DNA of 64,000 nt. It comes from Effrenium voratum. Its lineage: Eukaryota; Sar; Dinophyceae; Suessiales; Symbiodiniaceae. This document shows, piece after piece, positions 34,416 to 63,423 of the stretch. The stretch is from positions 1-64,000 of the forward strand of contig CAUJNA010001605.1 in the NCBI GenBank assembly GCA_963377175.1. Direction: 5' to 3'. Position numbers and translations under genes: made by a program. The stretch's first letter is position 1; every line of letters begins with the position of its first letter. The notes under the pieces were generated by a model. It did not search any database, was not told where the DNA came from, and saw nothing but the letters and a program-made list of their open reading frames with translations.

Positions 34416-34444
34416 TGCTCCAGCAGAATACAGACAGCTACACC

Positions 34445-41170: not shown

Positions 41171-41450
41171 AAGGAGAGAGAGAGCCCCGTGTCTTGTTTG
41201 TCCATTAGCTGATGTTTGCGTTCATCGACGGCATGTTTCATTTCAGTTAGTGCTATGTGTGTGCGAGATGATTTCTGTTTGCAGTGACTGTTTGGTGATG
41301 CGCAGCAATGATTCATCAGTTGAAAGGGGGACGCATTTTTTGGCATTGAGTATACCGACACGACAACCCAAGCACCACGACACATTCATGAAGTTTGCAA
41401 TTTGCAGTAGTTTTTGCATTTGTGTTTGTTGGCCGCCATTCCGAGCCAGC

Positions 41451-41811
41451 ATGGAGATTGAGATGTTCATTGTGCTGTATACGGCAGCGATCGTTTTGAT
41501 AACTGCAGGAATCTTGAACTGGCGCTTTATCTTCAAGAAATTGTGCTGTTTCCGGAATCTGCTGATCGAGGATTACAAGATTGCTTCTGGAAAGGAGCAA
41601 GATGAGATGTCTTCAGCTTCGAGTAGCGTGGAGACGATTTTGTTCCCAAGTGCCAAGAAGGCCTCTCGAAGGCCTACCAAAGCAGTGTATGTATTTCCGA
41701 ACAGCAAGGAGGTGTATCATCACTCCGAGTGCCATCGCTTGAAGAGAAGAGATGCAGGAACGGGTTAGACTCCGACCGTGCATGAACTGCATGGATTTCT
41801 GGACAGACTAG
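41451..41811 (+). CDS. Small single-pass membrane protein with His/Cys zinc-like motif, last gene of the copia
   Basis: ATG at 41451. Residues about 5-25 (MFIVLYTAAIVLITAGIL) form one hydrophobic helix, followed by a basic stretch (FIFKKLCCF), then S/A/K-rich sequence. The end has VYVFPNSKEVYHHSECHRLK. The frame stops at 41768, but a one-base shift continues RLRPCMNCMDFWTD to a TAG at 41809-41811, completing an H-x3-C ... C-x2-C set that would suit zinc binding. It lies between the polyprotein and the polypurine tract, where envelope-like genes sit in some LTR elements. There is no sequence evidence that it is an envelope protein. Confidence 0.6.
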
Positions 41812-41860
41812 CGCCAGAGATTTGAGCACGAGGTATGCATGGACGTGGCAGTCTTAATCC

Positions 41861-41869
41861 AAAAGGGGG
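41861..41869 (+). promoter_or_regulatory. Polypurine tract
   Basis: AAAAGGGGG directly before the TG of the right LTR; the usual primer for plus-strand DNA synthesis. Confidence 0.85.
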
Positions 41870-43112
41870 TGTGAAGAGATGAATCTTCAGATGTCTTAAG
41901 ACAGCCGTCTTGATGACAAGCCTTTTTCATCAGCAATGATGTGTTCGTGTTTTTGCATTTACGAGCTCTTCAAGGAATGCATTTCAATTGCAGCAAGCCT
42001 GCAATACTGCTTTGAAGCAGAGTTTTGGAGCACGCAGCTCCTGAGCATTTTTCATGGCAAAGTTCTAGGAGAACTTTGGCGAGTCATTTGTGCACAAGTG
42101 TTTATACCAACATTTGCCTTCATATTTGCTGTTGTGTGGACAAGTCCATACAGTTTGGTGCGCAGATTTGATTGGTGAGAACGACAGCTCGATTGAGCAG
42201 CTTGCATGGAAGTTGTGCTCGTTTTACATTTGGCAGATGCAGTGCATGGGAGTGTTTCGTCATTCAGCTGACGTATGGTGACCAAATTTGCCTTGAGAAC
42301 CGTGCGCAATCAATTTGTCAATGCATTACAAATTTGATTGCAGTGATGATTTATCTTTAAGCTCAAATGAGCTACATACATATGGTATAAAGTGCATTGA
42401 CCATTCGCAACAATTCGTTGCGAAAGTGGCAGCATGGTGGTTGGTGTTTGGTTCGGTTCTCTGGATATGGGGAACACCCCCAAGGTTTCGGCTGAGCAAT
42501 GCACATTTTCCAGAGTCTTGATTTCTTTCTGAAAAGCGAGAGATTGGAGCATCTATTATGTCTCGAAGAATATCCGATGATCCATTCTGGAAAAATTTGG
42601 CAGAGAGCAGCGCGCTACGCGCGCAACTCTTCGTGAGCCAGTGTTGCAATTGCGGTCAAGGTCGTGCGCGCATTCTTGGAGACACTGTGATGGTTCACAT
42701 TCCATGAACCATTAGGTTGTACAGTTGCGAGTTGTGGAATTGACATGAATTTGGATGTCAGCTTGCCGCAGACATGTTGCATGTGAACCCAATTCATTGT
42801 TTGGCAGTTTGCAAACCACGTGTAGTTGTGAACAGCCAATTTGTAAACATTTGTGGAAACGTGTGCAGAAGCCAAGGTGAGTGATTGCACTTGGCATATG
42901 CGTTGGCTCAAGGCCGACTCGGTTCGTGAGTCTTGAGTGGATCAAAGATCCACGCGCGGCGGGCCCCGCCATTGAGGTCCACGTACAGCCGGCAGAGTTG
43001 TGTACGAGAGGAGGAAAAGTGCACAGCTTGCTTGAACTTTCGGAACCACTGCGCGACTTTTTGTTCACACTGTGAACCTGGATATACTACGTATTTGGGT
43101 TTGAGTTTCGCA
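41870..43112 (+). repeat. Right LTR
   Basis: 1243 bp, TGTGAAGAG...TTTCGCA, followed by the target duplication TAAAG at 43113-43117. Confidence 0.93.
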
Positions 43113-43289: not shown

Positions 43290-46022
43290 GGCTGCGCTCG
43301 CGGCCTCTTCAGGGTCCTACACTTTTTGGTTGCGCTCGCGGCTTTTTCAGGGGTGATGGCCACGTAGCCGCCCGCTCTGAAGCGTCTCATGTCCAACCAG
43401 ATCGTGATGTGAGCGAGCTCTGCCCCTTGCAGCTTGTGGGTCGTGCTTGCGTATCCGGGCGGGCCGGGAAGCATGTGACGCTGCCGCCGTCCTCCAATTC
43501 TTCGGTCAAGGGAACAGGGCAAGGTCTTTTCCCGTGGCCGTGGTCACTCTCAGGCAGCCCGACGCGGCGTCCAAGCTGCGGACAGTGGCCTCCATCCCGT
43601 TCACAAAGTCGAGCGGCTTGTTGAGGTTGCGGGTCAAGTGTAGGCGCATCCCCGCGTAGATCTCTTGTCGCAGCGGCTTTGGGATGGCCTCCTTGCGCCT
43701 GCCATTGCCCTCGTAGTTCTCGGGGTTCGCCTCCCAGTCTAGCTCCAGCTCGCCCAGGGCCGGCTTGCGCATCTTCTCGAACAGCGCCTGGACACAGAGC
43801 TGGTTGACGACGGCCGCCTTCTGCCGAGTGCAGGTGGCCACCGTCGTGTCGGGGTGCTGGCGCAACACTTGCTCGATCTCTTCCAAGGTCGGGTCCCCTG
43901 CGTGGGTCCAGGCCTTGTGCCCCCGGCAGATGTCCTTCAGCTGCTCCGGCGTAGGGATTGCCGTGCGCAACAGCTCGAGCTTTTTTCGGAGCTTCTCATC
44001 CTTGCAGCGCCACATCTCGTGCAAGTTGACCACGAATGTGCTCCTCCACTTTGGGCTGTCCATGGCCTGGCTCTCGCCGACGCCCGGTAGCTGCCAGAAG
44101 TCTCCCGTGAAGACTAGGGCCGGGAGCTTGTCGGCAGCTTCCCACATTTGGATCACGCGGTCGAACTGCTCTGCGGTCAGCTGCGAGACCTCGTCCACCA
44201 CCACGAGGTCGTACTGCGCCAGGGCATCCAAGTGCTCGTCGGCCCTCTCCTTCCACAACCAAAACGCAGCCGCGCAGGTGTCCACGTCCGCTGCGGGATG
44301 CCGGCTGCGGACCCTTGCCGCTTGCTGAGCTGCGGGCAGCGCGTAGAGCACGCGCCCGCCGCTCTCCAGGATCCGGTCGACGCAATTGCCGGCGACCGTG
44401 GTCTTACCCGTGCCAGGCGGTCCGAGCCCGGCGATTGGTCGGGCGTCCTTGGCCGCGGCCTCTCGGATCTCGTCGAGTTCCTCGATGTCCTGCGCCGCCC
44501 GCGCCTTGGCCGCCCGCTCGGCGGCGCCAAGCACGCTGTCGCGCAGTAGTTGCTGCTGTCGATTGAGCTGCAGGCCCTCGTCTGGGACAGGGAAGCCTGC
44601 TTCTGCCAGACTTCGGCGAGCTCCCTCGGCGTCTCCTTTGACGATGTGGCCCGCCAGATACTGCTCGACGAGGTGGCGCTCCGCCTTCAGCTTTGCAAGG
44701 AACGACTTGACCTTGGCGACGCCCGTGGCCTCCAGCTCCAGCTCCTTGGCCACTGCCTCCTCATCGCTCCAGTGCTCCGGATGGCGGGCCAAGGCGTTGC
44801 CGAGGTGCTGGTACTGCTCGGGCACCTTCTCTGCAACTGACGGGTCAACCAAGTCCTCCAAGTTCCGGAACGGCGCCCGGAGAGCCAGCCATTGGCCAAA
44901 ATGGCGATTGTTGAAGACCGAGACCGAGTCCACCGCGATGAGCTTTTCTCCCTCCATCTCGCAGTTGTTCGCGAAATCCTCCAAGGTCTTGCTGCTGCCC
45001 TGGCGATTCCGCTTGTTCCAGACCCACTGCGCAATCTCGCCCTTCTTGTTTGTTTTGCGGGCGAACTCAAGGAGGCTCATGTCCTCGCGTCGCCAGGCGC
45101 TCTCTTGGTAGAGCTTGACGATCTTGGGCACGGCCTCCTCGCTCATTCCCGGCCAGGGCGCCCGCAGTTCCTCCATAGTCCCGCTGTAGCGGCAGGGCGG
45201 GAAGGTCTTGGCCGCCAGGTAGAGCCACATCTCCGGCTCGCAGGGCTTGTAGTCGAAGAGCACCCTCCGGGCCACGGAGAACGCCGAGGCCTCGTCCGCC
45301 AGCCACTCCTTCTGGAAGGCGTCCGAGAATTTTGGCGTGTAGGTCGCGCAGTACTTCAGCAACGGCCCCCGGTCGTTGCCAAGCAGTGCGTCTTGGTGGC
45401 ACTTCGTGATCTCCAAGGTGTCGGGGAAGTAGGCTCTGTGGCCGGCCGCCGCGTCCTCCGCTGTGTGCTTCAGCCGCAACAGCTGCGCGGCGTCGTCCCA
45501 ATGCGACTCCTCCTCCTGGATGGGCCAGCCCGTCGCCGCACCTGGCCGCCGGGGCCGCCCCAGCACGTAGCCCCGCAGCGCCGCCTCGTCCTCGCTCGGC
45601 TCCGTGGCTCGGATCTTCTCCTCGAGCTTGGCCCGCTTGGGCTCCCGCAAGTAGTTCAGGCTGTGGCAGTGGACCCGGCCGCTGCCGTGGTAGGCCTGGG
45701 TCGCTGCCTTGCGCTTGCCGTCTTGGTATTCCAGCCGGAAGAAGAAGGCCTGGCTGGTCTCCGCGCCGCTGTCGGTCGGGCCAAGGAGGTGGGCCTTCCA
45801 GACGTCCCCGCCGTCGGCGCTGCTGCGCTTGTTCATGCCGGTGTAGAGGCCCCGCTCCAACTCCGTGAAGACGTGCGCGTGATGCAGCGTCTCGAGGCCT
45901 GCCAGCTCCTGTTCCGGCTCGCCCTCCGCCGTGGACCCACCGCGCCGCCGCCCCGCCTGCAACATCTCGTTGAGGATCCAGAAATGGTAGGGGAAGCTGG
46001 GCTCCCAGGGCGCCATCGTCTT
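43290..46022 (-). CDS. Helitron-like gene E/F, C-terminal half: Rep (HUH, Y2) and PIF1-like helicase
   Basis: Open for about 840 codons from the transposon junction. It begins KTMAPWEPSFPYHFW, then ETLHHAHVFTELERGLYTGM, FFFRLEYQDGKRKAATQAYH, and an HUH motif in the form HCH (GSGRVHCHSLNYL, 45663-45671). The two-tyrosine motif is LLKYCATYTPKFSD near 45320-45370. Then follow ARRVLFDYKPCEPEMWLYLA and the helicase: GLGPPGTGKTT (about 44395-44430), DLVVVDEVSQLT (about 44175-44210), FTGDFWQLPGVGES, LTRNLNKPLDFVNGMEATV. A frameshift near 43510 precedes STTHKLQGAELAHITIWLD. Motif VI is lost: GYVAI runs into a duplicated ~36-bp sequence instead of the usual ALSRV. The N-terminal half is at 61312-63417 on the same strand, 15.3 kb away. 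Confidence 0.85.
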
Positions 46023-46054
46023 CTTGGATGCCCGTGTGTGTTTGCAAGTGTTTG
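46023..46054 (+). repeat. Left terminal inverted repeat
   Basis: CTTGGATGCCCGTGTGT then GTTTGCAAGTGTTTG. Mismatches to the right end at positions 9, 14 and 17. Confidence 0.9.
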
Positions 46055-46556
46055 TCTTACATGATATGTGTTTATGCCAACTAAAAACTGTTTGTTTGGT
46101 TTGGCTAAACTCGGTTAGCGCAGTTACCAACGTTGAGTTTAGCAAAGTTACGTTCAATTTACGGGTCAGTTTATTAACTCGGCTAAATGCGCTAAACTCC
46201 TTAATGTTGCGGCCGGAGAAGCAAACATTTTGCTACGGCGCGGAGCGCAGAAACTCAAAAAGCTGCACGCTACTACCTGCGAAAAACCACAGGCGCCAAA
46301 AAATACTGCCACTCAAGCTTATATAAGCGAGCCGTGAAAATGGCCCTGCAGCGCGCGAGCTTGTCCACACGCGACAATTGGCCCTGCGCCCACGCGTGCG
46401 GAAGCGAGCCTCATGATCCACGGGGTCCGCGGAATTGCCTGACGCCAGCAAGTTGAATGCATCCAAAAGGGGCGCCAAATCTTGTTAACGTCACAAGCAC
46501 ATGCGTGCGCGCACGTGCCACACACACGCAGGCAAAGCGAGCCACGCAACATATTT
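46055..46556. other. Left subterminal region of the DNA transposon
   Basis: Repeated TTTGGCTAAACTC, GAGTTTAGCAAAG and GCGCTAAACTCC motifs to about 46200, then CTTATATAAG at about 46317 with GCGAGC...GGCCCTGC beside it. These may be transposase-binding and promoter sites (inference). Confidence 0.5.
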
Positions 46557-48890
46557 TCAGGCCATGACCATCGCCTTTCGGCCGTGTACAACTTTATAGG
46601 CTTTCGACTCCACAATGGATCCTGTTTCGACCCAACATGGATCGTCGTTCATGTCGAACACATGGCGGCCTTCTGGGCGCCAGCCCGACAGACATGTGAA
46701 AAGATTCGGCCCTGCTTGAGCATGAAACCAAACCTGGCCTACTGCGAGCTCTGCGTTGACTTGAAATGAGACCACGTCTCCTTTGGAGACTGGCTCGCCT
46801 TTGACAAGAGCACGCAAAGATGCTTCGCAAGAATTTACAAAGATCCCCCTTGCCTGGAAGAAACTAAGGAGATCTTGGGAGCCGGCGTGGGGGCTCAAAA
46901 GGCACGTCCCCTCCCTGCCATGCCACTCCTCAAGGGCCAGCGCCTGTTGAAGCACCACCTCTTCCAGGAGGCCTCGCTCCCAACTTGAGCCTTTGCTGGC
47001 GTTGTGGGATTGATTTGCCCGCTTCTTCAGCTCTTTATGTTTTCGCTCATGCGTCCACAATGAAACCAAAGCACCATGGCGGCGCAATTGGTCTGCAAGG
47101 TGGTGGCTGTAGTGCGCCTTTGGGGGGAAGGCTGCTGCTCCGTACGCTGCCAGGCGGTGATGCAAGTGCGATTGCACTGCAGCCTGAAGGGCGTCAGGGC
47201 ACACCGGCCTGCTCCGTGTTTCGACAAGCAAGTCAAGCACCGCAGCCAGGGCGTTATATGACATCACCTGATGCGGGCAGAAGCCAGAAGCAACCTGACC
47301 CTCGCCTACAGTACGCATGCTTTTGCGCAAGAAAAATGTGGACACGGCTTTTCCATATAAGCATGGATTGCCATGCATGTGTGTATATATATATATATAT
47401 ATGTATGCACTAAACAGGGCGTGCTTGAGACAAATTGCAGGCGGGGCACGCACTTGGCAAGGTGACCGTGAGGGTGCGGCACCATGTCTGCGAGCAAAGC
47501 CCTGAGGACAGTGTACAAATTCAGGCCCTCGCTGGCTGAAGCCTTGATTTCACCGGAGCCAGGAGTGCGGCCCCGGAAGACTTGCGCGCCGCTGCCCCCC
47601 TTGGACACGATTTTACTGGGAAACTTCACATCAGCAACGTATGCGTGAATCATCTCCGAAGTGATCTTGCAAGACCTGTGGAGTTCATCGCACCTTACGT
47701 GGCCAGAAACGCGACTCTTTATCAGGCACGTCGCGCGCAGCGCGGCAAAGAAATGTGGCACAAGCACACGGGGGAAAAAAAACAAAAGACATGACATGAC
47801 ATGATGACTTCTTGCCAGCGAGCAGATGCCCGCACTCCGAGTTCCAGAGGCCAGACACTAGGAAAATGTGCATCCAGTCGAAGCAAGTCACTGAGATGGG
47901 GCCTCCTTGAAGGTACCTGCAAAATTCCTGGTCCCACAAGGCGCCTTCAGGCGCAAAGGAAAGGCCCAGGGACTGCTCCAATTTCTCGAATGTTGTTTTG
48001 TTCACAATAGGCTTTTGCTGGCGCAAGTACTGAGCGTTGTCGAGGATCGATCGGTCAGTGTGGGGGATGACGTTCTCCAAATTGGTCTGGCAACTCGGGG
48101 CCAAATTTGGCCCGTACTCGTCAAGCCTCGAGCTCCACGCAACAAGGTTGCGGCACCTGAAGCAGAGCATGGTCCCGCTCGAGCCTTTGACTGACCACAT
48201 TTGCTTCAAAGCCACCTCGTCGGCGACAACCATGGTAATGCGTCCGAAGACCATGCGGCGTCGCTCGCCTGGAAAGGTCAGCATGACACCCTTGCGTAAA
48301 TCAAAAGGATCGTCAAAGAACAAGGAGGCGATTTTTTTGAATACCTGCGAGTATATGCTCTTGACGTCCTTGAGGCGGCTTGAGCGCACAGCGCAGATGT
48401 GCATCCAAAGGTCCTCCCTGGAGATGGATGCGCCGTATTGACCCACGGACCAATAAAAGCTAACCAGTTTTCGCTGGTTATTGCCTTTCAGGACATTGCC
48501 AGGCACAACCTCATCGCAGTACAAAAGGACCTGGAGCTGAGGGTCCTTCTCATTGTCGTTTGCGCCCAGCTTCTCTGCCAGGAATTGACCAAACTGAGGG
48601 CTGCGGCTCACGCACACTTGCAAGAAGAGTGGCAGAGGGCTCACCACGGGCAGACTGAGACTGCTCCCGTCTTGAAGCTCTAACTCGATGGTTCGCCAAA
48701 GGTCTCCTAGGGCAGTGTCCTTCGGCAACTCTTGCTGCCGTGTTCTCTTCAAGGTTTGTCGGCTAATGCGCTCTGGGAGGCCGTGGTCGCGCACCGCCTT
48801 GAGGACTGCCACCATTGCAGATTGCGTCACGTAGCTGTGCCGGCCGGCCGAGATGTACACCTGTCGCCCCGAAGAGGAAGCCGCTGCCAT
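46557..48890 (-). CDS. Probable DDE-type transposase, spliced in about three exons
   Basis: Exon 1 (48890 to about 47820) starts MAAASSSGRQVYISAGRHSY. It contains VLLYCDEVVPGN, KLVSFYWSVGQYGASIS, VVADEVALKQMWSVKGSSGT with CFRC, and CFDWMHIFLVSGLWNSECG. Exon 2 (about 47740-47442) has VADVKFPSKIV and SASEGLNLYTVLRALLADM. Exon 3 (about 47307-46557) has KAHYSHHLADQLRRHGALVS, WTHERKHKELKKRANQ and SSWERGLLEEVVLQ. The intron between exons 2 and 3 contains a (TA)n tract and fits GC-AG or GT-AG borders. Acidic residues in CDEV, ADEV and FDWMH, and the late WTHERKH block, resemble CMC/Plavaka-type transposases and a large uncharacterised dinoflagellate family I recall. The catalytic assignment is inference. 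About 700 residues are expected after splicing. Confidence 0.65.
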
Positions 48891-49914
48891 GCCGCAGGTT
48901 TGCTAAAATTTGCGTGCTCACGAGCACTGCATGAAAGGGCGAGCAACAAATGCCCTGCGCACACCGATCTCCAAGCCTAAAAAGCCCGCAGTGACACTGC
49001 TTGTTGTTTTGCCTATATTGCACATGCGCCAGACTTGCGGCGGGCAATTTGATTCTGTGCTTCCATGCGGAACCGTCAACTGCATCTTCTGTGCGCTTTC
49101 ACGAGCCAGGCGCAACCAGCCGCATTTTTGGCGCAGCATGAACATGACTGCCCAAACCCATGCAGTGGGTCCAGATCACAACAGCATGCGAGCGCCGATG
49201 CGCATGAGCTTGCCAGACATTCAACAAGCCCGGCCTGCATGGAAGGGCATTTGCAGGATACACCTGCGTGAGCGGGCACTCAGCTTCACAACCACCCTAA
49301 ACCCTAAGTGATTCAAAAGCCGAAACGTGTCTCTTGCAGCGCATCATTCCAGGACCTTCGTTCAGCTCTCTGCTCAACTGTTCATGGCTGCGCTCTTTTC
49401 AGGCGCAATTCAAAAAACGTGGGTGTGGACAATGTTGTCCGTGGGAGCAAGCTTTCCAGCAACCGGTTGCCCCTTCTTCAAGCTGAATGCAAAAACAACG
49501 CAGTGGCATCAAGGCTGCAGGGGCTGCAACAGCTCGCGCCAGAAGCAGGGCCACATTTGATCAGGGCTCGCTTTCACCAGGATTGGGTTCACACTGAAGC
49601 CTCTCAGTTGCGCCCGAAAACACTGACTTGAGAAAAGGGGGCACATTGGGGAAGCTTGCCCTTGGGAACGGATCTACGCGGGGTCCAATTTCCCCTCGCG
49701 CTCACGCCGCTTGCGGCGCCGGATCAAATATTGAACCAATGGCAAACACTGCAAAATCGCGAGCCTGTGACTGAGGCCCTGCGTGCATGCAGGCCCTGCA
49801 ACTTCATGGCGAGCCATCGATCACTGGCTGGGGCTTGCTGAAACAAATTTGAACACTTTGCGACACTATCAGCGTCAAACAAAATCAATAGAACACCAAT
49901 GCCCCAGAGCCAGA
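48891..49914. other. Intergenic region between transposase and gene 2 of the DNA transposon
   Basis: No supported gene. Contains a CCCTAAACCCTAA motif at about 49294 and a GCAGGGC...GGGCTCGC motif at about 49540-49575. Confidence 0.5.
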
Positions 49915-51654
49915 CTAGCGCCCTTGCTCAATCAAGCTCAATGCCTTAGCAAAGGACGCGTCAGGGTCCTCACCAATGCGGATCTTTCTGTCGCAGCGGT
50001 CGGTGTTGACAACAAAGACACGCCAGTGGCCACCATTGCGATTGATCCTGCCGGGGCCATACCATGTAGTCCCCACTGGTTCTTCCGGCGTTGGCGGCCT
50101 TTGTCCGAGTGGATGAGGCGCAGGGCGAGACTTGGGCTTCGGCTTTGCCTTTGGCTTTGCCTTTGCCTTGCCCTTGGCCGCTGCAGGCGGCTGCTGATCT
50201 TCGGTGTCGTCTGCGGCCTGTTCACTGGCCTGCACCTTGCCCTCATCAGCACTTGCCGTGGCCTTGGCCTTGGCCTTGGCCGTTGCTTTGGCCTTGGCCG
50301 TGGACTTGCCTGCAGCCTTGCCCTTTGCTTTGGGCTTTGGCTTGGCCTTCTCTCTTTCCTGCAAGGCCTCCATCATAACCTTGGCCTGCTCCTCAGGACT
50401 GACGACAGGCACATCCGGCAGCGCCAACGCATTGGGCGACTGGGAAGCCTTCTTCTCAGAAGGTGGGCTGGCTGCCTGGCTCTCGCTCTCCTCTTTGGTG
50501 GGGGTTCCGTCTTTTCCGCGGGGGCTGCTGGCAGCAGCGGGTGCATTTGTCGGCGGCGCAGCAATCGCCCCCTTCTTCCGAGGATCATCGAAGATCTGCA
50601 GCCCTTGCAATTGAACTGCTTGCTGCGGTGAATTTCCAGAAGCCATTCCTTGCCCTAGCTGCGCCAAGCAAGCCAGCATCTGAAACATAGGGTTGCCATC
50701 TTGGCTGCTGTGGCACAATGCTTGCATGCAGTCCAACATCGTCAAGCTGCTGCCGCTCGAGCTGGAAGAAGCATGGGCAGAGGAAGGGGCTTGGGCTGGG
50801 CTCAGAAGTCGGGAGCTCTTTCGCAGCGCGACTGTGTGGGGGAAATGCTGCCCGCTGAAGCCCTCGCCTAGTGGCTGCTCGCGCTCACCGTACGCGTTCT
50901 GCCACCAAGTCTCATAGGCGGGCGACCCAAGGGTGTCCTTGAGACCTTGCGGCAACGCTGGGAAGTCAAGGACGTGCACAGCGTCCTCATCGCGCTCCAC
51001 CTTCCTGACCTTGGTTTTCAAGCTCTTTTTGAGGTCTCGCAGCATGTCGTTTCCGTGCTGCGCGTTCTGGATCTCCACACCACAGGCTTGCCCCACCCTG
51101 GCACGCCGTCGGCGCCAAGGCTAGGTTGTTTTAACAGAGCCAAGAGAAAGAAAAAAAACAACGCACAACATGACCATGGATAGGCGAGCAGCGATAGCAC
51201 ATGGCCACTGGTTGGCTCGGATGGCAGATGCAGCCCGATCTTATACATGCGAGATGCTAGAACATCCAGCTTGCTGAGCGCGCCTGTCCCCTGGCGGAGC
51301 TGGTCCATGTCCGAAGTGGTCATGTAGGCGCCAAAATTTTTCATGTTCTGGCGTTGCCTCATGGCAAGAGGCTCCTTGGACCCTTCACCGCCCCGCTTTG
51401 CGACAGCTTGCAAGAGCTCTTGTTTCATATTCAACTTTGGACAAGTTCATGCGGGCGATCCGCTGTCGCCACTGTTTGGCTTGCTGAATTGCCACATCTT
51501 TGAAAGTGTCATTCGAAAGCAGGCCCCGTGTCCTGTCAAGGTAGGCCGTGGCGGCCTTGAGGCCCTTAACAGCCTCATCCACATCCATGAGGTGGACAGT
51601 TCCCCCCAAACGCCAATGCCTGAGCCTGAGCTGAATTGCTCTGCGCAAGCACAC
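49915..51654 (-). CDS. Transposon gene 2: unknown protein with K/A/P-rich linker
   Basis: Exons: about 51654-51240 (MDVDEAVKGLKAATAYLDRT, then a frame change to KRGGEGSKEPLAMRQRQNMK and SRMYKIGLHLPSEPTSGHVL), a T-rich intron, then about 51096-49915. The last exon has LRDLKKSLKTKVRKVERDED, AYETWWQNAYGE, a serine-rich stretch, and a low-complexity KAKAKATAKAKAK/KPKPKAKG linker. It closes with a compact C-terminal segment, TTWYGPGRINRNGGHWRVFV then DRCDRKIRIGED. The basic linker suggests nucleic-acid or chromatin contact (inference). I do not recognise a named family. It is co-oriented with the transposase. Confidence 0.6.
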
Positions 51655-51989
51655 CTGTGTGGCAGGCGACGCTCAGCCCTATTCTATAGAAGCAAGCAAC
51701 GACAAGATGACGTTCGGCCTGGAGCTCCGCGTCCAGCATCTCCCTGACCATGCAGGTCAGGCGCCAGACTTCGGGCACAACGCTAGGACTGCATCAACTC
51801 ACATTAAGTGTGTCATGAACAAACTGAAGCACGATGTCCGTGTGGCACGCTTTTCCTTGCGCTATCAAAAAACATGGCAGCTCTTGTCTCAACTGCCCCA
51901 GCGGCCAACGCCTGACCTTGCTGCCGAATAAGTCAATGGGTCGTCAGAACATTTTGGGCCCTGTATCCACGTGGGCGCAGCCGCTGAGC

Positions 51990-52604
51990 CTAGCGCCTGC
52001 TAGCCGGGCACTTCGCAACCCTTGGTGGCGCTTTTGCAGGCCTTTTCATGGCCGGCTCTTTGGCCCTTGCCAACTGCTCAATTGAAGTGCTTGAACGTGT
52101 CTGCACACCATTAGAGTCCAAACAGATGATCTCGTCCTGGTCGGTCCACCACTCAGGCTTTCCCGTCATGTCACTCAGAATGTGCACCAGCAGAGTCGAG
52201 ACGGTGATGGGCCTGATAAACGTGCTCTCAAAGCCGCAGTCACCATATGGGTCGAGGCCAACTGCAGAGACATGGATGCCCGCATTGGTCTCCCGGCAAG
52301 ACAGCTTCATGCTCACCTTCTGCACCGGCGCGGTCATCATGTATACATAGGTGTCCTTGCCGGTCTTGCTGGGGCGCTTCAGGATGACGCCACTGTCGTC
52401 CACGTTCATCACCTGCCACTTGAAGGCCACGCAGGGGGACGTGGTGAGGTAGAACTTCTCTCCCACGAAGGCTAGGCTGCACCGCCGCGAGGCAGCAGGC
52501 CCAAGCAGCAGCCAATCAGACAGCGTCTGGTTCTCCCAGTTGGCCTCGTCCTCTGACAGGTCGGTCTTAAACTGCCAGCTCTCCATGGCGGCACACCGAT
52601 ACAC
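51990..52604 (-). CDS. Transposon gene 3: unknown ~200-aa protein
   Basis: Probable start MESWQFKTDLSEDEANWENQ (52586) or the upstream MYRCAAM (52604). A globular pattern follows: SDWLLLGPAASRRCSLAFVG, TSPCVAFKWQVMNVDDSGV, KDTYVYMMTAPVQKVSMKL, IHVSAVGLDPYGDCGFES, FIRPITVSTLLVHILSDMTG. It ends with a basic tail (KRPAKAPPRVAKCPASRR). Neither a signal peptide nor a membrane segment is seen. No known domain recognised. Confidence 0.6.
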   Translation of the reverse strand: MYRCAAMESWQFKTDLSEDEANWENQTLSDWLLLGPAASRRCSLAFVGEKFYLTTSPCVAFKWQVMNVDDSGVILKRPSKTGKDTYVYMMTAPVQKVSMKLSCRETNAGIHVSAVGLDPYGDCGFESTFIRPITVSTLLVHILSDMTGKPEWWTDQDEIICLDSNGVQTRSSTSIEQLARAKEPAMKRPAKAPPRVAKCPASRR

Positions 52605-54188
52605 AAAGGTGAAGGGTCACTGAGCGAGCCTCTGTGGCAAGGCCCTGCTTCAAAATGCACACAGCGAGCGCTCACAACGCCCTGCATTGGTTCATGTCAA
52701 GCACATGAACCCTTTCCAGAACGTGATGTCGGGCCAATGGCCGACTGTACACCACGTGCGTGCGATTGATTGGACACTCCAAATTCGATTGCAAACGATT
52801 ACCAACTCAACCTGATGCAAGCAATGTGAGACGCCAAACTCAAGCAGGGCTGCAACAGCTCGCTACAAAAGGCAGGGCTTTTCAGAAGCTCGCCTGCGCG
52901 TGGCTCGCTTCACTGAAAACACAGCTCAAACACATCCAAGACATGCCCAATGCAACGCACTCCCAGCTGAGCACCAACATGGTTTGTGCACACTACCAAA
53001 ATGGTGTTCCCCAGCTGAGCACCAAAGTTAAACTCGGGCCTCTCAGGATGCCAGTGTTGGACCCCAAATTGTGACGCCCTTATTTTCAAACTTCCTTGCC
53101 ACACCTGTGGGCCCTTTAACTCCTGTCACCTGCCTCAAACTCATTTCCACCCATTAATTGATTCAAGCAACCCTTAGTTGAACCAATTGCATGTGTGTGT
53201 GGGGGAAATCCTCCCTCAAACGCATTCTCTTCAGCTCGCTCCACAATCCAGTACAGGTTAAACATGTTCCAGTCAGGATCTGCCGCCACACAAACAAGTT
53301 CGACGTGACATGTCAAGCACTGCGCACACACACACACACACCCTGGCCAGAACCTCACTCAGCAGGCAAATGCTTTTAACGTCCGCGGACGGAGGTGAAT
53401 TCCAGTCGAGGGTGAAACCGTGCACTTAGGGGATGGGCATACAGGGTAGCCAAAAAAACAACAACTCTCAAACATGGTGTCTCAAAAATTTGTTGAACGA
53501 CAAATCTTGGACTAGGCACTATCCTGGAATTTGTTGTTCAATAAATATGGTAGTGTTTGTTTTGTCGTTCAACAAATATTTGGCGTTTTTATTTGTTGAT
53601 CAACAAATTCTGAGAAACCCGACATGTGGAAATTTGTTGAACAACAAATTCTGAGAAACCCAACATGTGGAAATTTGTTGAACAACAATTGAGGTGTGTG
53701 TTAGGGGTTTGGAACAAGTGATGCCCTGCGCGCCCTTTGTTGTGACGGATCTGCCGGCTGGAGTCGTGCTCGTGATTGACTGGACATGTCCATGTTGGCT
53801 GTGGCCGTGAATCCTGCCGCAGTTTCTAAGTGACTCGCCTGTGCGTGGCGTGGAGCCTGAAGCATGCACGCGCATGTGCGAGGTTTCATGTGTTCTTGTC
53901 AAGCTCCACGACTGGCGCAACCTAGCCTACGCATCTCTCACTCTGCTGCCCATGCTCGCTTTGGCCACCGCCGCCAGGTCCCTCACCGCCTGCCACCTCA
54001 CCATCTCCACGTTGCTGCTGCCACCGCGCGAGCGGGCCCTGGAGCGTCCGTAGCCAAACCTGGGCAAGACGGAAACAGCGCAAGGTTCCAAACCAAAGCT
54101 TTGCAAATCAACATGCAGGGTTTCTTTGAAACTCGCATCAGCAGGGCCATGACGGCTCGCTCGCACATGCAGCCAAAAGAAACACTCC
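52605..54188. other. Intergenic region with palindrome cluster
   Basis: No supported gene. Holds GCAGGGC/GCTCGC motifs near 52850-52915 and 54113-54165, a (CA)n tract at about 53327-53341, and the TTTGTTG/CAACAAA palindromes at 53487-53692. Confidence 0.5.
53487..53692. repeat. Cluster of six TTTGTTG-NN-CAACAAA palindromes
   Basis: Examples: TTTGTTGAACGACAAA (53487), AATTTGTTGTTCAATAAAT (53531), TTTGTTGATCAACAAA (53590, perfect), TTTGTTGAACAACAAA (53632). The last two to three sit in a ~40-bp tandem repeat with GAGAAACCC(G/A)ACATGTGG. Candidate binding sites for a dimeric protein (inference). Confidence 0.7.
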
Positions 54189-55451
54189 TCAAATACTCAG
54201 CCAACAAGACCGAGACATGCCAAGTAGCGGAAAGAACTGCCCATCGGCAGTCTCGTAGCCGCCAGGCACGTAGCGACCACCCCACCTGTCGGTCTTGCCC
54301 TCCATGCTTCCCCTCTCGCCCTGGTTCGGCTTTGATGATGCCCACCACGGCTTTGGAGCCTTGCCACCCTTGAGCTCCTGCTTGATGCCGTCCTTGCCGC
54401 CGTCCTTGCCGCCGTCCTTGCCACGCTTGCCGTCCTTGCCACCGTGGCCGTCCTTGCCACGCTTGCCATCCTTGCCATCCTTGCCATCCCGGCTGTCCTT
54501 GCCGCGCTTGTCGTCCTTGCCGCGCTTGCCGTCCTTGCCATCCTGGGCGTGCTTTCCGCCCTTGCCAGCCTTGCCATCTTTGCTGGCCTTGCCAGCCTTG
54601 TCTTTGGCCTTGCCAGCCTTGCCGTCTCTGCCGGCCTTGCTGTCGCCGGCCTTGCTGCCGGCCTTGCCATCTCCGCTGCCATATCCGCTGGCCGCACTTG
54701 CGCCCAGCTTGCCATAGGACCGCGATCGGTCTCGACTGCCATGCCATCCCTTGCCATGGCCAGGCTCCGGATCTCCAGCGCGGCCAGCGTGCTGCTGGGT
54801 GAAGACCGTGGCGGGCCTGGCTCTGCCCATGTACTCCGCGCTTGCAGTGGGGCGAACTCCCGGCTCCGGCTTGGGCTCCACCTGCGGCTCATTGAGCTCC
54901 ACCTGCGGCTCCTTGGAATTGTGCGGCTCCTTGAGCTCCACCTGCGGCTCCTTGAGCCCCACCTGCGGCTCCTTGAGCTCCACCTGCGGCTCATTGAGCT
55001 CCACCTGCGGCTCATTGAGCTCCACCTGCGGCTCCTTGAGCTCCACCTGCGGCTCATTGAGCTCCACCTGCGGCTCGTGCTCCACCTGCGGCTCGTGCTC
55101 CGAATCCTGCATGAGCTCATCCTCTTCCTCCTCCTCCATGCGCACGAGCTCCGCTTCCTCAACAAGCTGCAACAAATGTTCAACGTCGACATCATCTTCA
55201 TCATCTTCTTTCTTTTTTTTCTTCTTCTTCTTTTTCTTCTTTTTCACAGGATCATGTTCGGGATCCCCACATGCGTGCTTCTCTTCCGCGAGCGCCTCCT
55301 CCTTCGGCTGTTCCAGCTCATCCTCCACTCCGCAATCCTGCTCCGCCTCCTGCTTCAGCTCCTCCAGCAGCGCACTGCAATTGCATGTTCTTGTGTGAGA
55401 AGCACCCCCAAACCCTAAACTGAACATGTTCTTATGTAAGCAGCACCCCAA
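54189..55451 (-). CDS. Transposon gene 4: highly repetitive acidic/basic protein (EPQVEL and KDGK repeats)
   Basis: From 55451: a cysteine-containing N-terminus whose early part overlaps two CCCTAAA-like motifs and is uncertain, then an E-rich segment, a run of about 12 lysines (about 55205-55245), and an acidic stretch. About twelve EPQVEL-(N/K) repeats follow (about 54880-55100), then a central globular stretch and a DGK/GKD-rich basic repeat (about 54360-54700). The C-terminus has GGRYVPGGYETADGQFFPLL. The charge-patterned low complexity suggests a disordered linker or scaffold. The codon periodicity of the repeats favours real coding. No family recognised. Confidence 0.55.
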   Translation of the reverse strand: MGCCLHKNMFSLGFGGASHTRTCNCSALLEELKQEAEQDCGVEDELEQPKEEALAEEKHACGDPEHDPVKKKKKKKKKKKKEDDEDDVDVEHLLQLVEEAELVRMEEEEEDELMQDSEHEPQVEHEPQVELNEPQVELKEPQVELNEPQVELNEPQVELKEPQVGLKEPQVELKEPHNSKEPQVELNEPQVEPKPEPGVRPTASAEYMGRARPATVFTQQHAGRAGDPEPGHGKGWHGSRDRSRSYGKLGASAASGYGSGDGKAGSKAGDSKAGRDGKAGKAKDKAGKASKDGKAGKGGKHAQDGKDGKRGKDDKRGKDSRDGKDGKDGKRGKDGHGGKDGKRGKDGGKDGGKDGIKQELKGGKAPKPWWASSKPNQGERGSMEGKTDRWGGRYVPGGYETADGQFFPLLGMSRSCWLSI

Positions 55452-55470
55452 ACCCTAATGTGAACATGAC
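55385..55470. repeat. ~42-bp tandem pair containing CCCCAAACCCTAA
   Basis: CATGTTCTTGTGTGAGAAGC and CATGTTCTTATGTAAGCAGC are each followed by ACCCC(C)AAACCCTAA and TGAACATG. A telomere-like motif again lies at a gene boundary. Confidence 0.65.
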
Positions 55471-56449
55471 TGCATGCATCAAATGGCCGGTCCTCCTCCT
55501 TCGGATCCAAAACCAGCCGCTTCAGCAGCTCGCCCGGGGTCCAGTGGCGTTCATCTTCTTGAGCAGGCACATCCATGTGCGCACGATGCCGGATTCGGCC
55601 AGTTGAAAAAAAAACAAACACCTGGTTGGTTTCCAAAAACTGAAGCGAAACCTGATGAGAACAAGAGTGTTGAGGTTGGTTGGGAGCATGTCCATGTTGC
55701 AATCAAACCTTACTGTCATGTCTATAGCCATTTGGTTTGCGCTGCCTTAATCCGTACGGTGACATGTTGTTTTTCTTCGAACTGCAACCACACAAAGTTT
55801 TGGGGTCTTCCTTATCAAACACTAGGTTCAAATGACAGTGAAAGTTGAGGTTGAGCCCAAACCCTAAGCAGTGGAGTGAGGTGTGCCCAATCGGGATGCT
55901 GTGTGAATGGAGTTCCTGCAGCATGCGTTACTGGAATTGCTAAACTAACAAAACCAATGCAACCACTGCCACTATGTGAAAACATGAACACGCATGGTGC
56001 TGCGCCCCTGCGAGCCACAAAGCACAGGACAAATCCAAACTCACGATGCAAACCGTTTGCAGGTTGGCAATGACTTTCAGACATGTCTGGCGTTGCTTTC
56101 AGCCTCGGGCCACTTTGGCGTGGGGTCAAAAAGGGTGGTCAAACAAAACGTGTCTTTGTCTAACCCCTTTTTAGGTTTCACATGCGCCTTAGCTTCAAAT
56201 TGCCAAAATCATGGCAGGGTTTCAAATAGCTCGCCTCCAGCAGGGCTTTTCTAAAAGCTCGCTTTGAACTGTTTCCAGCAAAACTGCCAAGCTGGAAGCG
56301 CACACCAATGCAGGAATGAAAACACAGAAACTCTCCACCTAAAATAGCAGAAGCACGCTGCTTTGTTGATCAACCGACTCACGATCGTTGCAGCCGCCCG
56401 TGCCTCACCACTCAAAAAACGCACTCGGCTCACGCTGCACAAACCTGGC
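55471..56449. other. Intergenic region
   Basis: No supported gene. Two adjacent GCAGGG(C/T)TTT...GCTCGC motifs at about 56214-56265 and a CCAAACCCTAAGC at about 55856. Confidence 0.45.
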
Positions 56450-57127
56450 TCAATTTTCAACATCACTGGCTGGGGGTTCAGGAAGATCACCAGAATCCAC
56501 CTCTTGGCCCTTGCGCAGCCTGGTCGTTTTCTTCTTGGGCGAAGCGCGCTTCCGTGGCTTCAACTGCGTCTGCCCTGACGCAGCCATGTTCTTCATGAAG
56601 GTCATGTTCTCCTTAGTCAGCTCAACCCAGAGGTTCTTGGACGTGAGCCCCCACAAGACCCGCATTGGCCTTGACACGTGAGTGACACCCTTCCACTCCA
56701 GCTGCGGGGTCTGGATCGTCACGATCGGGCTGACCAGGTGCGCATCCTCCTCTCTGACTTTGCGCTTCTTGCGCTTCATTGCCTTGGATTCTTCTGGCAG
56801 CGAGTCTTCCATTTCAAGGGCTGCCGATGCTGCTTGGATGCTTGCTTCCTTGCGCAAGCTCAGCAAGGCATCAAAGTGCGGAACATTTGCGTTCCTGTGG
56901 CCGTCGCCCTTCTTTGAGGTAGAACTCATGGTCTTGTTCAGACAGAACTTCACGAAGCCGCGGTCAAATTTGGAAAGCCTGACGAAGGGCGCCCCAGCCT
57001 TCTCCACGGTGGTTGGCAGCCACGCCCTTTCGCCGCTGCTCGTCACAACCCATTTCTGCTCGATCTTCACGGCAGCCTGCTCATCGCCAGAGTCTCCATC
57101 CGATGGGCTTGAACCGCGTGCGGACAT
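56450..57127 (-). CDS. Transposon gene 5: unknown ~225-aa basic protein
   Basis: ATG at 57127 (MSARGSSPSDGDSGDEQAAV), with a TATATA-like sequence about 25 bp upstream. Contents: KIEQKWVVTSSGERAWLPTT, FVRLSKFDRGFVKFCLNKTM, a basic KRKKRKVR that could be a nuclear-localisation signal, VTIQTPQLEWKGVTHVSRPM, and a C-terminal KPRKRASPKKKTTRLRKG. The two basic clusters suggest nuclear or DNA-associated action (inference). No family recognised. Confidence 0.6.
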   Translation of the reverse strand: MSARGSSPSDGDSGDEQAAVKIEQKWVVTSSGERAWLPTTVEKAGAPFVRLSKFDRGFVKFCLNKTMSSTSKKGDGHRNANVPHFDALLSLRKEASIQAASAALEMEDSLPEESKAMKRKKRKVREEDAHLVSPIVTIQTPQLEWKGVTHVSRPMRVLWGLTSKNLWVELTKENMTFMKNMAASGQTQLKPRKRASPKKKTTRLRKGQEVDSGDLPEPPASDVEN

Positions 57128-57458
57128 TCACACACTGCAATGCGAGCCACTATATAACAGGGCCCTGCACACAGGCTACGAGCTTGAATGAGAAGCCCTG
57201 CAGCCGCTTCCTTGAACGCGCGCCAAATTCAACATGCGCTGCCTCACACTCAAGTTGCAAGCGGGCAACGACAAATTGTCCGCGCGTTTCCAAGCTTGGC
57301 GCGACGTCAGTGCCACATCAAAAAATATTCCATCCAACACTCTAGGCTCCACGCATGGAGGCCGGCATGATGAGAAGAAAAACATCATGAAGCAAACAAA
57401 CAGCCACAATGGAGTTTTCTAAAGTTGCTTCGTGACACGCAAGTTCTTCTCGGCCGGA

Positions 57459-59683
57459 TCAAGGAGCGCTCTTCTGGCGCTTCCGCTGCCTTTGCTCTGG
57501 GGCAGGCGGCTCCACCTTCAGCTCCTCAGGCTCAGACTCTTCCGGCTTGGGCGAGAAAAGCAGGAGGCTTTCGCCAGCGGATAAGGCCCTTTGGTTGATC
57601 ATAAGGGGGATCTTCACTGCAGAGTTGTCCTCGCCATCGCCAAACATCGGGGAGATGACACAGTTGGCCTCTTCCTCCTGGTCAGTCTTGCGCACCATGA
57701 AGAAGGGACAGAGCACCGAGCGGTCAAGGCTGCCGTCCTTCCCTGGTGGGGAAAAGGAAGAGTGGATAAAGAGCTGCACTCCGTCAATCTTACCGAGAGG
57801 CAAGCCGCCAGGCTTGGTCTCCAACTTGTGACTGCTTGGAGCCAAAACCATTTTCCCTTTTGGGAAAGATTGCTGGCACACGACATTCCTCATCGGCTTC
57901 ACTTGAAGCTTCAAGCCCTCCATGGTGTGCTCAAACTTTCTGCCTGCCTGCAGCACGGCCTGCGCCACGCGACCGCGGACTCCCATGAGCTGCAACAGGT
58001 TAGAGTTGGTCCCTGCAAAATCCTTGTACACTGGCCAACTGAACTCGAGGGACTCTGCGGGCTTCTTGACGATCTTCCAGTCCCCCCTCAAAAAGCTGGC
58101 CACTGCCACCTTGCACACACCGCTGATGGACTCTGTCTCAATGGTCAGCACAACAACCGAGCTCTCCATAGAGCGGATCTGGCCGCGGGCTTTGTCCTTC
58201 TTGCGGACCACGTAGGAGCCCACCTGGAAGCCTTTCTCCTTCAAAAGGACAGACTGATCTCGCAGCTCGCCCTCAGAGTCGTAAGCCCTTTGCCTTGGCA
58301 GGAGATAGCAGTTTAAGGGTTGCATATAACCCCGGAAATTTGGAGAAATGAGGACGACTTTTGCGGAAAACAAAACAGCCCGGAGTATAGTGTAGCAAGG
58401 TGCTCGGTGTGCTGCGCACACTGTTCGGCCTTGGAAGAGCCGGAAGAGCTCTCTCTGCGCTGGCCGTACTCCTCACAAATCCTTTTGCCAGTCAAAGCTT
58501 GCACCTCGTCCACAAGTTTGCTGCAAGCCTCGGACATGTCCAGGCCTTTGACCTTCTGCAAAGCAATCAAGACCAGAGTGTCTTCAAACTTGTCCCGCGC
58601 CTCGAGCGCTTGCAAGCCGGCCTCACGAACCAGCGGCCGCATCTTTTGCATCAGGTCCTGGGCCTTCAGGATGCCTGGCTGCAGATCTTGAGCCACAAGC
58701 ATTCGCTTCACATCTGCTGCGGCGATCATCTTCTTCTCCGAGGCATACGCCTGAGAGAACACCGCGTAGCGGAAGTGCATGTGCTGCTGCGACTGGTCCT
58801 TGCAGTTGCCACTCAAGGCAGCGTAGAAGTCAGAGCCCAGCTGCCCCGTACGCAAGCTTCGCTTGACCCTTTCTTCGGCCCTGGCAAAGAGGTCAGCCTG
58901 GTAGAAGCGCATCAGGAAGGTGAACATATACGGGCACGCGCTGGCACACATGGGCTTCGAGGCCAAGATCCGAAGCTTGACTTTGTCCCACTCAGCATTC
59001 TGGTTCACCTGGATCATGGACAAGATCCGCTTGAGCATCTGAAATTCGTGCTCCCCCTTCGCAAGCTGACTGCCAGTGTTGCACGCCGACTGCACCAACT
59101 CGCTCACGCCACTCACGCACATCACCTCCAAACTAATCACCTTCCATCTCATCCCACAACGAGCCGCCTCTGCAAAGCCTGCGTCAATGGCCTCCACTCT
59201 GGCCAGGCTCAGATGGCCATCGACGCAGAGCGGGCCACTCTGCGGGTGCAGGGCCTCATGTCGCAAGGCTCGCAACATCGCATTCGTGTGCGACCCAGCC
59301 AGCGAGGCGTAGCGCATTGAGATCTCATTGATTGGCGGTATGAGGCCACCACTGTCCTCACACAGTTTCTTATTGAAGGCAATGACCTGCTGGTCGTGCG
59401 GAGCCAACTCCAGGCATATGCCTCTGGCCTCACCGTCATTCCATCCCACCTGAGCCACCTTCTCCACAAGTTCGTGGATGTCGGGCCCCGACAATCCGAA
59501 CCCGTCTCTGTTGAGAGGCGAGCATGCAATCTGATCAGGCTCCAGCTGCACGCCCTCTCTGATCAAGCCGTGTCTCTTCAACGCTGCAAGCAACTGATGG
59601 TGGGCCTGAACTACCTGCCCAGTCTCTTCCGCATGCCGCACGGCGGCCTCAATCTCCTCTCTTGCAGCATTGCTCAACGACAT
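57459..59683 (-). CDS. Transposon gene 6: large unknown protein, at least two exons
   Basis: Start chosen at 59683 (MSLSNAAREEIEAAVRHAEE) rather than the longer upstream frame, because a TATATA-like box lies about 100 bp upstream. Exon 1 includes SPLNRDGFGLSGPDIHELVE, VGWNDGEARGICLELAPHDQ, MLRALRHEALHPQ, LSLARVEAIDAGFAEAARCG, FLMRFYQADLFARAEERVKR and a helix-rich end. Around 58420-58320 an intron with ambiguous borders leads to exon 2: QRAYDSEGELRDQS, GFQVGSYVVRKKDKARGQIR, GDWKIVKKPAESLEFSWPVY, a C-terminal half with VQLFIHSSFSPPGKDGSLDR, and a basic tail (QRQRKRQKSAP). I recall similar exon 1 text (NRDG.GL...HEL...VGWD) in uncharacterised dinoflagellate proteins (memory, unverified). Function unknown. 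Confidence 0.6.
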
Positions 59684-61277
59684 GTCTTCCAGAGCTTCCA
59701 GAATTCTCACTCTTGAGCACAACACTTTGCAAAAAACAAAGCGAGTCACTTGTACGCGTGCATGCGAGCTTGACAGCCCTGCTAAGTTGCTATATAAGCG
59801 AGCGTTCCGATCTGCCCTGCTTTGCACGTACCATGACATCTCAGGTTTCACATGTGCTCATAAGGCATGCAAGACTGCAGGTAACGCACGACAGCCCGGC
59901 CTCCACCCTGCATATAATAGTTGGGTTTATCGAGATATCCGGCCTGCAGATTGAAGCAATCACAACCAGATCGCACACATAGCAACCCTAGCCAACACAG
60001 CCGTTGGCAAGTTGAGCGCTGACGGTCTAAGTCTTGGACAGTATACAGCACACCTGAAAACGTAAGCCGCACACCTGCCAAACTGCCTTAGACATGACTG
60101 ACTTGCCAAATCTGACACGTTGCAAACCTGGCTAAGCACAATTGCAGACAGCAGCACACCCGCCTGCATCCCATACACACAAGGCTTTGCAAAAGGTTGT
60201 AACTTTTGTTGTTTGACGCCCATCCTCCGGAAACCAGCAGAATAACAGTTCAACTTCTTAGGCCATGTGTGAGTTCCATGCAAATCCAACAACGCCATGC
60301 ATGCAGGCTGCTGCGTGCGTGCCGCTTTGCAAGCTTGTTTAGTTTTCGCTGTTCATTGTGTTTGTTTCGAAAAATTGCCGTGAGCCTAATGGGTTTGACC
60401 ATGTTGTTCTCGCAGTCAGAGTTTCGGTCCAGCCGGTAAAACAAGCGGTTTTGCCAAGACATGATGTAAAAAAAATCGGCACATGTTGTAAAAAAATGGC
60501 ACCAACAACAAACATGCACGCAGCCCTATATCAGGCAGCACCCGGGACACGTCAAAGTCTCAGTTGCAAACCGCACATGGCAATGCCGGTTACCAACTGC
60601 AAGCGTGGCGCGCAAGGCCTCGAGCAAGGCCTTTTAAAACAAACGCACCAAGTTCACATGGCCCCAAAATCAACCATGAGGAAGCTCCCGCCCATGCATG
60701 GGCTTATGTTCGCACGCGCCATCCCAACGGCGCTGGCCAGCGCAACGCTGCAATCACATGCTCAAGTGCAAAAATACATGTTTCCTACATATGTTCAACA
60801 CGCACGCGTGACTCAACATCAACCAACCGTCGGCTTGCTGTAGAAAAAAAACGAATCTCGGAGGCAACTTGGCGCTCTGCTGCAATACGCGCGCTCGTTT
60901 TTGGCCTACCGCGCAATTCACTTATATCGTGTTTTGGCCGGGCGTCCTCCAATTTCGGCCGCCATGAAGGTCGAGAAAAAAACAATTTACCCATGTTACA
61001 ACTAGGATAGCAACCCAGCCAAACTGGTTTAGCTATAATGCCCAAACGCAACCGCTCAGTTTAGCCTGTTTAGAAACATAATTTGCAAACTGAACCCAAA
61101 CAGAACAGCCAGTTGTCGCACATAGTAAATTCGGGTCAAATGTTAGTAAACCGCCTATTGCACGCAAGCAAGGTTGGTTGGTTTACGCACGCTTTAGATC
61201 AGTTACGTTACGCGTTGTGCAACTTACGCCCTAGTTTGCGCAGCTTATCGCACCTGACGCAAATCAGCCATGTCGGC
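59684..61277. other. Upstream and right subterminal region of the DNA transposon
   Basis: CTATATAAGCGAGC at about 59789 with GCCCTGC 10 bp on. Nothing coding from 59850 to 60990. From about 61010 to 61270 TTTAG/TAAAC motifs are dense (CTGGTTTAGC, CAGTTTAGCC, TGTTTAGAAA, GGTTTACGCA), mirroring the left end. Confidence 0.55.
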
Positions 61278-61309
61278 CAAACACTTGCAAACGCAAACGG
61301 TCATCCAAG
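61278..61309 (-). repeat. Right terminal inverted repeat
   Basis: On the minus strand CTTGGATGACCGTTTGC then GTTTGCAAGTGTTTG, the inverted partner of 46023-46054. Confidence 0.9.
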
Positions 61310-61311
61310 TT

Positions 61312-63417
61312 GAAGATCTGCGGGTGTCCACATTGTCGCTGCAGGTCGATGAGCGCTGCGTGCCGCGTCTTGAAATACAGCGGCGAGAACGTCTCGCCCT
61401 TCAAGACGAGCCGGAGGGGGATGTGCTTGCACGCGTTCTTGCCCCCGCCGATGCGACTCCACAGACTCAAATCATAGACAAACTGGAGCAATTCGAAGTC
61501 CTCCGCGTAGCCGGCGATGGGGCCCAGGACCTTCTTCATGAAGGACTTCTTGATGCTCTGGCGACCGCTGTGTTCGCCGCCCTCCTCTGCCTCCGAGCCG
61601 CTGCTTTCGGCTGGGTGCCAAGCGCGCGGGTGGCGCCGCCCTTCCGGCTGCGGCCCGCCGACTTCCTGGGCCGGGTCGGCCGCGCTGCGGCGCCGCTGAC
61701 GGCGCACATCGCTGGCGCGGATGGCTGTCTCGCACATTGCTTCGGCCCAATAGAGGTTGGGCCAGAGCGCGTTCTCCAGGCCGGACGTCTCCAGGAACTG
61801 CAGCGGCCGCTTGCGCCGCTGCTCCGGCGCGTCCTCGCCTTCCCGCCGCAGGAATTTCTCGTGTCGCTGAACAAAGTCTCTGTAGGCGGACTCCTCGGAA
61901 TCCATCAGGAAGTCGTAGGCTGCTCGGGCGGCCCTCCTCTCGTCCCGCGGCAGCTCTCGGATCTTTTCCAGGACGCTCTCGGTTGCCCACGCCAGCCGGA
62001 TCATGGCGGTGTGGACCCGGTAGCCGTAGGCCGCCCTCTGGTAGGGGCCTGCGTCGATGTCTAGAGGCCGGAGCGCCTGAACGACTGCCTTGGAAAGCGC
62101 CCGGAGCGGCTGCGGCATCTCCTCGAAGGTTGGGATGGCAACCTTGCTGTTCTGGCACGCCTTGCAGGCCCGCGGCGCGATCTCCGGCTTGGCCACTCTG
62201 CGGCAGTCGATCGGCTCCAGCCGCCGCGGCTGCAGCGAGCGGCAGCCCTTGCAGATGCCCCAGGAACCGAATTTTGCCCAGAGCTCCACGAAACGGCCCT
62301 GCTCTGAGCGGGCCGGCGCCGGGAGGCCCGCGTCGTTCTCCGCGATGTTGTCGCCGGGCGGCGCCTCGATGTCGTGGGCCTCGAAGAACTTCTTCTGGAC
62401 GCGTTTGCGGTCGGCCTTGACCCGCTTCTTATGCTTCTTGGCCTCTGCCGCGGTTAGCGGGCGCCAGGCGCGCTTCCGAGAGGCCAGCGCCGTGGCCCAG
62501 GAGGTCTTCGGGCTCGAGCTCGCCTTCTTCGCCCGACGACGCGCCGCCCGCGGCTGGGTGTCCGCCGCCGCCTCCTTGTGGAGACGCTCGCGAAAGCTGT
62601 CTGGGACCCGAAGCAGAGCCGAGTTGTAGATGTGGGGCTTCTCCGCGTAGACAGCGCGGAATTTCTTGAGGGCGCCCAAGATGGCGCCGCGGCCCTTCGC
62701 CTTCTCGCAGGCGCCCGTCATCAGCTTTTCGTTGCAGAAGACGCAGGCCTTGTTGCCCTTAATGTGGCTGTTGTAGCTGCCCGAAGTCCCCGGGCGCTGC
62801 TGGCTATAAATACACGGCCAACGCGCTCCGCGCCCCGCGCACTTGCGCGCGTCCGCCGGGGAGGCCGCGCTCGGCTTCTTGACCGCTCTCGCCCCCGTGC
62901 TCGCGCTGGGTGCCGCGCTCGGCTTCTTCTTGACTGCCGCCTTCGCCTTCTTCGCGACCTTGTTCGCGGGCGGCCGCTCCTCTACTTTCTCCAGCTCCGC
63001 CAAGGCCGCCTCCAGGAGGTCCTCCGTCTGCGCTTTGCCCTCGCCAAGGACCTCTGCCGTCTCATGCGGCCGCTTCCCCCACGCCCGGCAGCGCTTGGGA
63101 GCCTCTGCTTCCGCCCGCTCCTCCGTAGCCGCGGCCACCTCTGCCGCCTTGTCCACCTCCGTGACCATGCTGTCGACCCACCGGTCCCAGGTCATCCGCC
63201 CGACCGGATGTTTGAGGCTGTCCAAGACCATTGTGCCAGGCGTCTTGCCCTCTGCCTCCAGCAGCGCTTTCATCCAGCCGCCGACCATGCGCTTGTAGTT
63301 CGAGATGTCCGCCTCCTGGTCGAAAAGCTCGCTCACCTCGTCGCGGCGGCGCGAGCCGCCCATCCGCTGGTAGATGCCATAGACGAGGTCCCCGCGCCAG
63401 GCGTAGTAGAGGGCCAT
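61312..63417 (-). CDS. Helitron-like gene E/F, N-terminal half: zinc-finger and Rep-proximal region
   Basis: About 700 open codons. ATG at 63417 (MALYYAWRGDLVYGIYQRMG), though gene B has a further exon-like segment upstream, so this start may be internal. Contents: SELFDQEADISNYKRMVGGW, a KKPSAA-rich linker, ACVFCNEK, a basic region (KKHKKRVKADRKRVQKKFFE), and FGSWGICKGCRSLQPRRLEP with a later ACKAC. Then LRPLDIDAGPYQRAAYGYRV, LENALWPNLYWAEAMCETA, SIKKSFMKKVLGPIAGYAED and RHAALIDLQRQCGHPQIF. The next residues belong to the inserted DNA transposon. The continuation is at 46022-43290. Together they would make a Rep-helicase of about 1,550 residues. Confidence 0.85.
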
Positions 63418-63423
63418 TGATCA

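Follow-up and report, generated by a model that had tools for sequence, protein, structure and literature searches.

Why a single gene of the free-living dinoflagellate Effrenium voratum should lie in two halves some 15 kb apart is the question raised by the 64,000-nucleotide stretch analysed here (the window, on contig C1605). The answer appears to be an insertion. Since the sequence between the halves ends in 32-bp inverted repeats, is flanked by TT at either end, interrupts a gene of helicase type and recurs elsewhere in the genome as a near-identical full-length copy, positions 46023-61309 (15,287 bp, with the described genes on the minus strand) very likely constitute a DNA transposon. 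We hold it highly probable that this element moves by cut and paste through its own transposase, which is predicted to be RAG1-like with a BAH-like tail and likely works with a conserved companion. The left terminal inverted repeat, on the transposase side (CTTGGATGCCCGTGTGTGTTTGCAAGTGTTTG, 46023-46054, plus strand), matches the inverted right repeat on the companion side (CTTGGATGACCGTTTGCGTTTGCAAGTGTTTG, 61309-61278, minus strand) at 29 of 32 positions, and the TT target-site duplications lie at 46021-46022 and 61310-61311, all as the preliminary description had placed them. The 32-place end pattern, with up to three mismatches allowed, is matched twice in the window, at the two element ends, and on average 0.00 times in 100 shuffles.

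The interrupted gene is read on the minus strand, with its 5' half at 61312-63420 and its 3' half, which holds the helicase domain, at 43509-46022. Precise removal of the 15,287 bp together with one TT restores, as had been claimed, a single stop-to-stop frame of 1541 residues with the junction HPQIF-KTMAPW. However, if the limits of the removal are moved by a few bases, roughly every third phase also reopens the frame, so that the restored frame by itself is weak evidence and the weight rests on relatives that align across the junction. The window holds three other, diverged members of the split gene's family, at 12859-14172 (plus strand), 31747-28791 (minus) and 24626-21723 (minus). The first aligns over the junction unbroken (FRTRAPYELSFPYH) and the second, over 31747-31013, through YWTFAPW; the continuity that had been described for both is thus complete in the first, whereas in the second a stop codon and a frameshift follow about six codons past it. 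The alignment of the third relative stops short of the junction. The split gene had also been called Helitron-like. A helicase of SF1 type is indeed recognised in Pfam (AAA_30, E-value 1.8e-20), but no Helitron model matches at E <= 0.1, and the putative HxH and YxxxY motifs are presumably those of Helitron proteins. With several diverged relatives in one window, the family of the split gene itself looks mobile.

If 46023-61309 is a transposon, other copies should share its two ends and differ in their flanks. In the 1.156-Gb assembly (3699 contigs), a search with the left 381 bp yields 13 matches, spread over 10 contigs of which nine are other than the window's, and one with the right 383 bp yields five matches in five contigs, four of them other than the window's; the two queries together reach 10 other contigs, and in all 10 the end that is seen begins CTTGGATG, no copy with ends elsewhere having turned up. 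A full-length second copy lies at C2084:7957-23385 (15,429 bp), with TA on both sides; in its alignment to the window element, 15,209 columns match and 33 are mismatches. Removing this copy with one TA opens a frame of 234 codons; if the TA is kept, that frame has 142 codons and the best other frame 191, and the C2084 copy, too, may split a gene. An internally deleted copy (C3371:417211-422577, 5,367 bp) likewise has TA on both sides, its right end being diverged after about 20 bp, and its removal opens no frame above 150 codons. Among the remaining matches, a copy on C1619 has no left end and is followed by TG at its right end, one on C315 is preceded by AA at its left end, and those on C745, C398, C634, C814 and C919 are partial within the stretches fetched. 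On C398 (169833-170454) there are two tandem left ends, spaced by 455 bp and with the same flank; the flank counts leave out the second of them. TA flanks seven of eight left ends and three of four right ends at the other loci, so the family appears to prefer TA. The 2-bp duplication of the preliminary description therefore holds, but its TT is a departure of the window copy from the usual TA.

It could be argued that the split reflects a chimeric assembly in which no insertion took place, since the genome is in 3699 contigs and the insertion is known from the assembly alone. However, the same dinucleotide stands on both sides at all four loci at which both ends were read (the window, C2084, C3371 and the more distant C3411 element described below), which makes a chimera most improbable. 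The insertion of a transposon into a gene is instead supported by the C2084 copy, which is independent and full-length and has the same two ends between other flanks, along with the deleted copy between its TA pair.

What moves the element is suggested by the gene next to its left end. The transposase, on the minus strand, has a predicted splice structure of three exons: exon 1 (47815-48890, 3' limit approximate) encodes the first D (48515-48513), the second D (48221-48219) and the C(2)C motif (48164-48153), exon 2 (47450-47677, both limits approximate) follows gene model P0001, and exon 3 (46560-47292, 5' limit approximate) encodes the H(3)H motif (47114-47100), the putative catalytic E (47048-47046) and then the BAH-like end. 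Between the second D and the E, the window protein reads CFRC for C(2)C and HYSHH for H(3-4)H. The presumed catalytic acidic residues D, D and E are kept in 59 of 59, 61 of 62 and 46 of 49 aligned transposase rows, respectively. The predicted fold of the core resembles that of RAG1, at 8-13% identity in structural alignments; in Pfam no family scores better than E 0.057 among 19 family members. The C-terminal tail is likely, from its predicted structure, a BAH-like, chromatin-reading domain. It is possible, if less probable, that the tail is a generic beta barrel that plays no chromatin role: its Foldseek matches to BAH domains are at E 0.012 and weaker, Pfam gives no BAH match, and the tail was predicted as part of the whole protein and not as an isolated domain.

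The companion gene lies on the right-end side of the element, also on the minus strand, in two exons (58421-59683 and 57462-58295) that are 99.8% and 99.3% identical to P0027. Against the C919 relative, its ratios of nonsynonymous to synonymous substitutions (dN/dS) are 0.148 in exon 1 (404 codons) and 0.152 in exon 2 (291 codons), indicating purifying selection; comparisons with C1619 and C2084 contain few changes and their values were not used. Ten homologues were found. In F. kawagutii two neighbouring gene models, Skav222050 and Skav222051, are homologues of companion and transposase; they share strand and scaffold, and their starts lie 13.3 kb apart as against about 10.8 kb in the window (59683 to 48890). 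The companion has no credible match in Pfam or among solved structures; there are weak signs of a ParB-like N-terminus. The preferred course of events is that the transposase would bind the CTTGGATG ends, cut them and join them to a 2-bp target resembling TA, that the companion would be needed as well, perhaps for end pairing or target choice, and that the BAH-like part might guide insertion by reading chromatin.

Perhaps the window copy is a mere passenger that depends on other copies for movement in trans, its own genes having lost their function. After window position 51429 it is short of about 50 bp found in the C2084 copy, and alignments of C745, C3371, C398 and C1619 show 45 extra bp there; the splice structure of the transposase is a prediction, and the partial copies on C315 and C398 carry stops in this gene. 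However, the window copy keeps all seven hallmark residues in open exon frames, and its nonsynonymous divergence (dN) from C2084 is 0.001 in exon 1, so that we regard a passenger as rather unlikely and an element moved by its own transposase as the better explanation. Four more open frames described for the element, all on the minus strand, lie between companion and transposase. Gene B (56453-57127) has stop-free aligned pieces in C1619, C2084 and C919, the alignment falling into two pieces in C1619 and C2084, and a dN/dS of 0.21 against C919. Gene C (54192-55454) is a low-complexity frame and a candidate coding sequence. Gene D (51993-52616) has one stop in C398 and a dN/dS of 0.52 against C919, and gene E (49918-51120) a dN/dS of 0.61 against C745, with another open frame upstream of it at 51021-51446.

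The window element is one subfamily of something larger. With a transposase relative, P0004, as query, the genome yields at least 72 matching pieces, and 64 of 72 rows are stop-free; these counts are lower bounds, with 66 of 459 candidates scored, and some genes enter them as two or three pieces. Comparison of copies gives sharp edges for two subfamilies, CTTGGATGAGC for the C704 type (three copies, one end each, flanked by TG, TG and TA) and CTTAAAGG for the B720 type (four copies, one end each, flanked by TA, AG, TA and TA), and no boundary within 1.6 kb for a third (C1424, C3210 and C1979). At another locus (C3456:1025584-1030583) a run of N stands just before the start of the shared block, and the second end is not readable. 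Both ends could be read in the C3411 element, which spans about 10983-22456 by a hand count from printed positions, measures 11.5 kb and has TA on both sides; the transposase it encodes shares 28% identity with P0004, and a companion relative of about 170 residues (25-29%) lies near its far end. Ends begin with CTT in all three subfamilies with an end read, two of them at both ends. These ends and flanks indicate that the CTT start and a 2-bp, often TA, target are common to very distant subfamilies, and the full-length copies show the order from companion to transposase to be common to the two subfamilies in which both ends were read.

To which known transposons is this family related? The preliminary description had looked towards CMC and Plavaka. 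Hallmark residues, predicted fold and duplication length fit the CMCT clade, but by its ends the element is neither CACTA nor Plavaka. Duplications of 2-5 bp characterise the clade, and 2 bp are found at four of four loci; CA..TG termini, said to hold mostly, are not found, the ends being CTT..AAG. In plants, some large EnSpm/CACTA elements carry a second gene, a likeness added to the shared hallmark. According to PMC12730594, however, EnSpm/CACTA elements have CAC..GTG ends and, in the families described, 3-bp duplications; Plavaka elements, which share the hallmark and have duplications of 2 bp (A) or 2-3 bp (B), end in TGT..ACA or CATCA..TGATG; and KDZ duplications are longer, at 7 bp in Kyakuja and 8 bp in Zisupton. 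ESTA elements are CMCT transposons named for TA duplications (PMC12730594), and TA is found at most loci of our family despite the TT in the window; yet ESTA elements are fungal and occur with TET/JBP genes, a comparison by description and not by sequences or termini. The element might then be an ordinary member of a described CMCT lineage, such as ESTA or Plavaka, that had gone unseen in dinoflagellates until now. Its hallmark residues and 2-bp duplications would fit, but the CTT ends in three subfamilies and the lack of a Pfam match better than E 0.057 among the 19 members speak against it, ESTA and Lanisha having been compared without sequences, and we think such membership unlikely. There is a fair chance that the element represents its own superfamily, set apart from EnSpm, PlavakaA and PlavakaB by their described ends. 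No title or abstract found in literature searches names such an element in dinoflagellates.

A different likeness is that to RAG1, ProtoRAG and Transib, which share the predicted catalytic-core fold and the D-D-C(2)C-H(3-4)H-E order, and of which RAG1 has a second gene, RAG2, beside it as the transposase has the companion. The low structural-alignment identity, the CTT..AAG ends and the 2-bp duplication, as opposed to 5 bp in Transib, set the element apart, as does a companion with no credible match in Pfam or solved structures; and where RAG2 brings a PHD reader beside RAG1, the element has the BAH-like tail.

The window holds other repeats as well. A Copia-type retrotransposon (zinc knuckle, RVT_2) occupies 33993-42927, outside the element, and its direct repeats (33993-34212 and 42708-42927) are identical over 220 bp. 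Nine exact minus-strand copies of CTGGCAGGATCAACCAGGTT, which we take to be the reverse complement of the usual 18S rRNA 5' end, lie in repeat arrays (5141, 5345, 6363, 6780, 6956, 15685, 17373, 17551 and 17888); Rfam yields just a weak SSU match (E 0.64), and repeats with an rRNA start are odd.

With this element, the CMCT/RAG group gains a branch in dinoflagellates whose ends are defined and whose complete copies are almost identical, and in which a RAG1-like enzyme goes together with a probable reader of chromatin and with a partner gene that is conserved. As a tentative but serious possibility, we propose that it belongs to an undescribed superfamily filling dinoflagellate genomes, with a RAG1-fold transposase fused to a BAH chromatin reader, an obligate DNA-binding and maybe ParB-like partner, CTT..AAG ends, TA targets and a length of 11-15 kb, and that it would constitute, independently of RAG1-RAG2, a second RAG-like system of two genes that has a histone reader of its own. 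RAG1-RAG2 is held to descend from such a two-gene element, so that an independent parallel would make it testable why enzymes of this kind acquire chromatin readers and partners. With at least 72 transposase pieces in this genome, the family may account for part of the mobile DNA in such genomes.
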